Shown here: piece after piece, positions 45,355-47,369 of the stretch
How the letters are laid out: every line of letters starts with the position of its first letter
Position numbering within the stretch: position 1 is the stretch's first letter
Notes under the pieces: model-generated
The model's database searches: none
What the model was told of the DNA's origin: nothing
The model's input: the letters and a program-made list of their open reading frames with translations, nothing else
Program-made: the position numbers and the translations under genes
Source of the DNA: Ornithinibacillus bavariensis
Lineage (GTDB): Bacteria; Bacillota; Bacilli; Bacillales; Amphibacillaceae
Length of the DNA stretch: 64,000 bases
Direction: 5' to 3'
Assembly: GCF_018333235.1 (NCBI RefSeq)
Contig: NZ_BORP01000004.1
Coordinates: 248,001-312,000 of the forward strand

Positions 45355-45460
45355 TCATTAAATAGTTAAAATCAGATGAAATATTTCGAATGAAAGCAAG
45401 AAATCCTTGCTAGATTTTTCCTGTATATCTTGAGAAAATTTATTTAAGGAGTGGATGATC

Positions 45461-46597
45461 ATGTATATTGGCGAAAAGTTAAAACTAAGAAGAAAAAAAG
45501 CTGGATTTACACAGGAACAAGTTGCCGAGAAAATGAATATTACCCGGCAAACATTATCCAATTGGGAGGTCGGAAAAAATTATCCTGATATTGACTCCAT
45601 CATTTCACTTAGCCAAATCTATAATCTCTCCTTAGACGAATTGTTGTTAGGAAAAATCCATTTTAAAGGAGAGTTTGTCATGAATAAGAGATTAACATTA
45701 GATGAAATTACTGCTTTATTAAAAAAGCATTACCCGACCGCTATAAATATGAAAGAACTAAATGGTGGCCTAGTTTCGCAAACTTATTTGTTTGAAGACG
45801 GAAAACAACACTTTATTTTTCAAGTAGGAAATCAACATGAAAGTTATAAGAAAGAACAATTTATTGGGAAGGAACTTATGAAGTGGTTACCTGTTCGGAA
45901 TGTATTAGAAATTAATCAGGACGATAATGGAATTGCTTATTCTATCTCAACATTTATAGAAGGCGAAAAATTATATGACCTCAATAGCCAAGAGCTTCTC
46001 GACATCGTTCCTGCTGTTTTAGAAACATTAGAAACTTTGGAATCCATTGAGGTGCCTGTGGATAAACAGGGATATGGCTATTTTGATAGTAATGGCAACG
46101 CTTCTTACCCGACCTGGTTAAATTTTATTGGTGCTGTATACAACAACGACATTTATAACTGGTCATCCTTAGAACAAAAAGGATTGGATTCTGAAGTAGT
46201 TCATCAGGCAATGAAAGAGTTAAAATCTCATATAAAAAACATTCCTATCAGCTCAAGAAATATTGTTCACGGTGATTTAGGCTCATTTAACTTATTGGCT
46301 AAGAATAATAAGGTCACAGGTATTATTGATTGGAGTTTATCCTTATATGGGGACCATTTATACGATAAAGCAAATATTCTATTTTGGAATGAGAAGAAGC
46401 TTCAACCACTTATCAAAGAAATAACAAATAAATATATTACAACGTTCGAAACAAGAGAAATTGTATATTGCTATATGCTTCGGATAGGATTAGAAGAGTT
46501 ATATAACACAGTAATTCGCGAATTTGTGGGCTACGATATTGAATGGGTAGCCAATCGGTTAAATGAGATTATGCGTAACTTTTTATATCAAAAATAA
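45461..46597 (+). CDS. XRE helix-turn-helix fused to aminoglycoside-phosphotransferase-like kinase
   Basis: This unusual two-domain protein is 378 residues from the ATG at 45461, which suits AAGGAG nine bases upstream better than the ATG two codons earlier. Residues about 4-62 are an XRE/Cro-type HTH (MYIGEKLKLRRKKAGFTQEQ, then ITRQTLSNWEVGKNYPDIDS). Residues about 75-378 are an APH-like kinase with catalytic NIVHGDLGSFNLL, the metal motif GIIDWSLSLYGD, and a hygromycin-phosphotransferase-like pattern. The junction contains a second start, ATG 45680, with AAAGGAGA seven bases upstream, which would yield a free 305-residue kinase. The substrate is unknown. It lies divergent from gapB, in a position absent from B. 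subtilis. Confidence 0.85.
   Translation: MYIGEKLKLRRKKAGFTQEQVAEKMNITRQTLSNWEVGKNYPDIDSIISLSQIYNLSLDELLLGKIHFKGEFVMNKRLTLDEITALLKKHYPTAINMKELNGGLVSQTYLFEDGKQHFIFQVGNQHESYKKEQFIGKELMKWLPVRNVLEINQDDNGIAYSISTFIEGEKLYDLNSQELLDIVPAVLETLETLESIEVPVDKQGYGYFDSNGNASYPTWLNFIGAVYNNDIYNWSSLEQKGLDSEVVHQAMKELKSHIKNIPISSRNIVHGDLGSFNLLAKNNKVTGIIDWSLSLYGDHLYDKANILFWNEKKLQPLIKEITNKYITTFETREIVYCYMLRIGLEELYNTVIREFVGYDIEWVANRLNEIMRNFLYQK
45666..45682 (+). promoter_or_regulatory. Internal ribosome binding site and start within the HTH-APH gene
   Basis: AAAGGAGA (45666-45673) is placed six to seven bases before the ATG at 45680-45682, in frame with the HTH domain. Independent initiation would produce the kinase domain alone, at the size usual for APH-family enzymes. 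Confidence 0.7.
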
Positions 46598-46925: not shown

Positions 46926-47369
46926 ATGGATAGAATTTCCTTTAGAGATATTGATAGCTCTAATGAACGGATTGTTAGAAGTATAAAATTAAAACCCGGA
47001 CAAGAAAAATTTATTGAAACTGTCGATGAATGTTTGAAAGAAGCTCAAACATACCAAGAATGGCATCCAGTCGCAATATATTACGATAAGGAAATTGTTG
47101 GCTTTGCGATGTACGGTTCCTTTGGTCCTAATAAAGATACTTGGATTGATCGAATAATGATCGATGAAAAATACCAGGGTAAAGGCTTAGGTAGAATTGC
47201 AATGATCAAGCTCATTGATATTGTGTCAATGGAGTATGGGGTAAACGTTATCTATTTGAGTATCATCGAGGAAAATAGAGCAGCTCAACATTTATACGAA
47301 AGCTTAGGATTTGAATATATTAATGAAAAAGACCCGAATGGAGAACTCATCTTTAAATATACTGTTTAA
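46926..47369 (+). CDS. GNAT acetyltransferase, BltD (spermine/spermidine) type
   Basis: This 147-residue GNAT protein is close in pattern to BltD, the B. subtilis polyamine acetyltransferase linked to the Blt drug exporter. Matching parts are SFRDIDSS, FIETVDECLKEAQTYQEW, PVAIYYDKEIVGFAMYGSFG, the acetyl-CoA loop DEKYQGKGLGRIAMIKLI, and IYLSIIEENRAAQHLYESLG. It would acetylate spermidine or spermine or a similar diamine. AGGAGG lies 13 bases upstream of the ATG, a long spacing. It stands alone between the HTH-APH gene and coaE, with a terminator downstream; no blt exporter gene is adjacent. Confidence 0.82.
   Translation: MDRISFRDIDSSNERIVRSIKLKPGQEKFIETVDECLKEAQTYQEWHPVAIYYDKEIVGFAMYGSFGPNKDTWIDRIMIDEKYQGKGLGRIAMIKLIDIVSMEYGVNVIYLSIIEENRAAQHLYESLGFEYINEKDPNGELIFKYTV

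Follow-up and report, generated by a model that had tools for sequence, protein, structure and literature searches.

A single gene of Ornithinibacillus bavariensis would, in our reading, give rise to two proteins: a kinase fused to a helix-turn-helix (HTH) domain, which represses its own synthesis at an operator of its own, and a free kinase made by internal initiation of translation; we give this reading a probability of about 0.6. Sequence comparison within the window (the whole 64,000-nucleotide stretch analyzed) and among homologues establishes the fusion, the conservation of a second start at its junction and that of a palindrome upstream, and the features involved are the following.

45395..45411, no strand: palindrome AGCAAG-N5-CTTGCT, a probable operator for the HTH of this gene; its core is present in 12 of 12 upstream regions
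45430..45439, + strand: conserved leader block TTGAGAAAAT between palindrome and start, from the alignment of 12 leaders
45446..45451, + strand: Shine-Dalgarno (SD) sequence AAGGAG serving the full-length protein, spaced 9 nt from ATG 45461, pairing -9.0 kcal/mol
45461..46597, + strand: full-length HTH-kinase, a 378-aa open frame with Pfam domains
45461..45658, + strand: XRE/HTH_3 DNA-binding part, residues 1-66; Pfam HTH_3 at 7-61, nearest solved chain 7t8i
45665..45671, + strand: internal SD AAAGGAG at the junction, identical in 12 of 12 genes
45680..46597, + strand: predicted free kinase, 305 aa, APH(4)-like; start codon in 12 of 12 genes, nearest solved chain hygromycin-B 4-O-kinase

Translation of the window gives one open frame at 45461-46597 with no internal stops, and ATG 45461, 9 nt from AAGGAG, is the start common to six aligned homologues; an alternative ATG at 45455 opens the same frame, yet lies only 3 nt after AAGGAG. 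The HTH had been predicted to run in frame into an APH-like kinase with an intact HGD motif, and so it does: Pfam HTH_3 (PF01381) covers residues 7-61 (E 4e-16, 59.2 bits, curated cut-off 23) and Pfam APH (PF01636) residues 98-326 (E 1e-17, 64.8 bits, curated cut-off 23.2), both above cut-off in a stop-free frame, and HGD is read in the kinase translation. The catalytic-loop residues Asp272, Asn277 and Asp290 are unchanged in seven of seven aligned fusion proteins; the kinase of locus L007 has DGD where the others among the seven have HGD, with the catalytic Asp retained.

In a sequence search against the PDB, the nearest solved chain to residues 1-64 was the Xre regulator of ICEBs1 (7t8i, E 1.9e-12), which, as other XRE repressors, resembles the HTH part and differs in being without a kinase; the RstR repressor model (NF041951) reached 52.7 bits, below its curated cut-off of 80. 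Structure prediction of the fusion protein was unusable (pLDDT 52, pTM 0.38). The combination of an XRE HTH with a kinase might also suggest a HipBA-like toxin-antitoxin unit compressed into one chain, a notion which the weak PDB match of the HTH to HipB (E 0.017) favors; we find it hardly credible, as the kinase domain is Pfam APH, the HipA family is missing from the seven Pfam matches of the fusion protein at E<=0.001, and the relatives are stand-alone drug kinases.

A contig search of genomes returned 24 loci, six of them full-length fusions (L006-L011) and 18 matching the HTH region only or nearby, and further genome searches added five fusions (L030, L031, L070, L071 and L072). These 11 come from as many further species and, with the window gene, make up the comparison set of 12 fused genes; L062-L067 and L074-L077 duplicate loci already included and were left out of the counts. 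The record of L006 is titled Paenibacillus bovis DE0126, and its genome is grouped with Lederbergia species, so the title is probably wrong. That the frame might be a read error across separate HTH and APH genes, the outcome named at the outset as fatal to the original prediction, was rejected: all 12 homologous genes are fused, with no split seen in the clade and no homologue carrying a stop between its parts. The TAA flagged inside L071 and L072 proved to be their terminal stops, both frames being full length.

In the host's family only one of 159 genomes matched at E<=1e-20, namely the host itself, leaving 158 without; at the same threshold a sample of the class gave 5 matches in 398 genomes (three fused, two kinase only). 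Matches were found in 2/39 genomes of the family of G414, 7/34 of the family of the L008 genome and 2/261 of the family of the L007 genome, while two order samples gave 5/377 each, none of them new. The per-family counts include the window wherever the host belonged to the set, and since scoring in the large samples was limited to a few top candidates from each genome, weak relatives may escape. The fusion is rare and patchy, across four families including that of the host. The best matches listed for phages and viral contigs were either confined to the HTH or very short, and among the plasmid matches listed (part of 1871 and 769 records) those to the kinase begin at residue 69 or later and those to the HTH end at residue 76 or earlier.

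By eye, the neighbors of the fusion gene in the window are taken to be gapB on one side and, on the other, a GNAT gene with coaE after it. The 12 genes occupy, also by eye, six places: that of the window, one common to L008, L009, L010, L070 and L071, one to L007 and L072, one to L030 and L031, and one each for L006 and L011; this is what would be expected of a gene that travels by itself, control region included. The GNAT neighbor (46926-47369) has relatives at 68-81% identity in six of ten congeners; these lie in other places, and the HTH-kinase is missing from the 3.4-kb loci read around them, so the two genes are not a fixed pair.

This distribution bears on a further alternative, in which the protein is a metabolic enzyme-regulator whose kinase acts on a cell metabolite and whose HTH reads its level. 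NadR is an enzyme-regulator of this kind, with an N-terminal HTH and an enzyme in one chain, and to our knowledge a second start yielding the bare enzyme is not part of the NadR or BirA systems. The gene described here resembles both in joining an enzyme to an N-terminal HTH in one chain and in the probable self-control of its expression; it differs in enzyme fold and substrate. Its operator-like site would also fit this alternative. BirA has been described as an enzyme-regulator with an N-terminal HTH (PMC4016012). We consider this alternative quite unlikely, given that occurrence in one of 159 family genomes and in six neighborhoods among 12 genes fits a resistance-type gene better, and that the nearest characterized relative is a drug kinase.

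That relative is hygromycin-B 4-O-kinase, whose solved chains are the nearest to residues 77-373 (E 2e-36; 7.5e-46 with a profile). The dedicated APH(4)-Ia model (NF000107) gave 128.5 bits, far under its curated cut-off of 725, and the same model produced eight matches at E<=1e-15 in 329 class genomes, none above cut-off, three in frames of 384-387 codons (fused) and five in frames of 308-317. APH(4)-Ia (PDB 3tyk, 3w0m-s) and the fused kinase align end to end and have the catalytic loop in common, together with the stretches ..DW....GD..Y..AN..FW and ..LRIGL..LY..; APH(4)-Ia differs in lacking an HTH and a fused form, and is only 24-29% identical. APH(4)-Ia is reported to accept no substrate but hygromycin B, by means of a pocket that is compact and contains hydrophobic residues (PMC3691515). 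At that level of identity any substrate assigned to the fused kinase would be tentative.

A kinase tree was built from the 12 fused kinases, seven stand-alone relatives and APH(4)-Ia, rooted for drawing only. The fused kinases fall on one side of one branch (support 100/99, 200/200 bootstrap trees); APH(4)-Ia is on the next branch to the fused clade, a placement made unsure by the tree program's warning of long branches. The seven stand-alone relatives, 305-312 aa long, begin to align close to the internal start; none in the tree is closely related to the fused clade, and loss of the HTH was not seen there. A single fusion event is likely. Identity of the 11 homologues to the window protein is 82-92% in the HTH and 49-74% in the kinase, with mean pairwise values of 86% and 64%, respectively.

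At the junction, a strong ribosome site 6-7 bases ahead of ATG 45680 had been proposed to yield a 305-residue product, and this was borne out: the spacing is 7 nt counted from AAAGGAGA (8 nt from AAAGGAG) and the predicted product is 305 aa. We scanned 48 window genes for internal in-frame ATG, GTG or TTG codons no nearer than 30 codons to the start and 100 to the end, scoring their pairing with the 16S tail. Such codons numbered 487, in 45 of the 48 genes, and only two reached -9.4 kcal/mol; both belong to the fusion gene, one at the junction (-9.4) and one at codon 140 (-9.7). The junction pairs about as well as the main start of its gene (-9.0), and its value is near -10.15, the median over the 48 genes for the best start among the first 40 codons. 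Within the window genes scanned, a ribosome site with an ATG of this kind is confirmed to be more than chance. The ATG at codon 140 (45878) exceeds the junction in SD strength, and its column is without a shared start in the homologues.

The second start at the junction, also part of the original prediction, is kept in every fused gene: AAAGGAG occupies codons 69-71 in 12/12, and codon 74 is ATG in ten and TTG in two, the non-Met residue being Leu both times and TTG also serving as a start codon. In a scan of the coding alignment that ran from column 21 to some 60 columns short of the end, no column but 74 carried a start codon in every one of the 12 genes; the same column had the strongest SD pairing on average (-9.0 kcal/mol, worst -8.3), and the runner-up columns with at least nine start codons were 25 (10 genes, mean -1.9) and 171 (9 genes, -6.9).

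Codon choice points the same way. The junction Gly is the sole one of 19 invariant Gly columns with zero codon changes on the tree (the others have 2-7), and the junction Lys is one of three unchanged codons among eight invariant Lys columns, a column-rank chance of about 3/8 x 1/19 = 0.02. Three invariant 7-base runs exist in the coding alignment; AAAGGAG is one, and the other two contain a Trp codon. The probability that each gene's own codon usage would give AAA and GGA everywhere is, assuming independence, 8e-7 for the 12 genes, 3e-5 for nine representatives and 0.012 for four deep lineages. This last value and the column-rank chance make the junction-codon statistics modest under a strict view of relatedness; the start codon and the spacing add weight.

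Because a single fusion is likely, the junction site may be a relic: only the fused protein would be made, and the SD would be what is left of the ribosome site of a kinase gene captured by an HTH. The grouping of the fused rows in 200 of 200 bootstrap trees fits this view, and Lys69 and Gly70 are invariant residues, so that Lys-Gly may be kept for the protein. We regard a relic as unlikely, since the site persists between the window gene and those of G414 and G180 at 49-50% kinase identity, and since the start codon is present in 12/12, with both Leu codons being TTG.

Upstream of the junction, CTCTCCTT in codons 56-58 (45626-45633) is complementary to the AAGGAG of the junction SD, with the rare Leu codon CTC in 12/12 genes; Leu56 is the sole one of 23 invariant Leu columns with zero codon changes. 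The HTH could on this basis be mainly a translated leader: ribosomes reading it would melt a hairpin that covers the internal site, and free kinase would be the one product of importance. Between the SD and codons 56-58 the predicted pairing reaches at least 0.70 in seven of the 12 genes; in the other five it is at most 0.24, and in the window 0.00. A hairpin hiding the internal site was rejected as a general mechanism on these figures. The window does fold locally tighter than shuffles (z -2.26), via a different structure. The HTH protein is moreover the best conserved part (86% vs 64%), which a leader would not need, and we hold the leader explanation to be very unlikely.

The long form would have a target of its own in the palindrome. 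Its core GCAA-N7-TTGC occurs in 12/12 upstream regions (300 nt), at -63 to -65 in 11 genes and at -141 in L009; the full 6-bp arms are found in nine of them, with 5-bp arms in L006 and 4-bp arms in L007 and L072, the latter type reflecting a change on one side. In L009, about 150 nt upstream of 4001, the leader and first codons are tandemly duplicated, giving a second palindrome half and a 19-codon mini-ORF before the real start. The genome scan, made with the strict form GCAAN7TTGCTAG, found one occurrence in the host, at the fusion gene, and none of the reversed control. The earlier suggestion that the kinase regulates itself is strengthened in part, by an upstream palindrome that is conserved and, in strict form, unique in the host genome; substrate may in turn control the HTH, as was proposed with it.

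Among five lineage representatives, leader identity is 0.73 in the last 68 nt against 0.57 in shuffles and falls to background beyond (0.60 vs 0.57 from -102 to -68; 0.59 vs 0.58 from -204 to -136), which places the upstream edge of the conserved unit at the palindrome. Promoter-like sites were at chance level (9 found, 9.1 expected), and the operator therefore cannot be positioned relative to a promoter. The palindrome is the sole terminator-like site by scan (1 found, 0.6 expected) and could be an RNA element. An attenuator or terminator was rejected on three grounds: the T-run has not been conserved (TTTCCCC in G414, TTTCCC in G759, TTTACC in L007), two genes have 4-bp arms, and the window leader folds no better than shuffles (z -0.47). 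We prefer to read the palindrome as a putative DNA operator. An upstream mini-ORF over the palindrome of the window (ATG AAA GCA AGA AAT CCT TGC TAG) was also dismissed, as by eye it is not kept elsewhere: L006 and L008 are without the in-frame start and L072 without the stop. Rfam gave one sub-threshold snoRNA match only, downstream and on the other strand.

From this evidence we infer DNA binding, autorepression, a class of substrate and induction, in the following form. Translation from 45461 would give the HTH-kinase, most likely a dimer on the palindrome 45395-45411, which would repress its own transcription, and the internal site at 45665-45682 would give the bare 305-residue kinase, responsible for the bulk of the chemistry. 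The free kinase would probably phosphorylate an aminocyclitol-type compound like hygromycin B; in the presence of such a substrate, repression may weaken and output rise, either because the fused kinase is occupied or because the ratio of long to short form shifts. As a more tentative extension, the gene may perhaps be a one-gene inducible resistance unit, in which the drug kinase represses its own gene and senses the drug, and the short form destroys the drug and, by taking up substrate, restores repression after the drug has disappeared; operator, HTH-kinase and internal start would travel together from genome to genome.

Genes with a second in-frame start form a small but established group, among them CheA (L/S), InfB (alpha/beta), CcmM and SsaQ, with about 50 candidates in Salmonella (PMC11005335). 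As in those, one gene would give a long and an N-terminally truncated form, and a second in-frame start with a ribosome site, kept in relatives, is present in 12/12 of our genes; the differences are that the short form would lack an entire DNA-binding domain and that the evidence comes from comparison of sequences alone. A literature search, with most subscription journals outside its scope, found no title on an HTH-APH fusion or an HTH-fused aminoglycoside-type kinase. We rate the arrangement as new in form and as belonging to the known enzyme-regulators and dual-start genes.

Drug-modifying enzymes are usually under separate regulators or leader attenuation. If our reading is true, this kinase would be both enzyme and repressor, with the free enzyme coming from an internal start, a very compact control circuit that could be moved as one gene. 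The conserved internal start can be detected by comparative sequence alone, and automated annotation records the long form only. The keeping of the junction start signal in distant bacteria suggests a compact, self-controlling gene of the resistance type.
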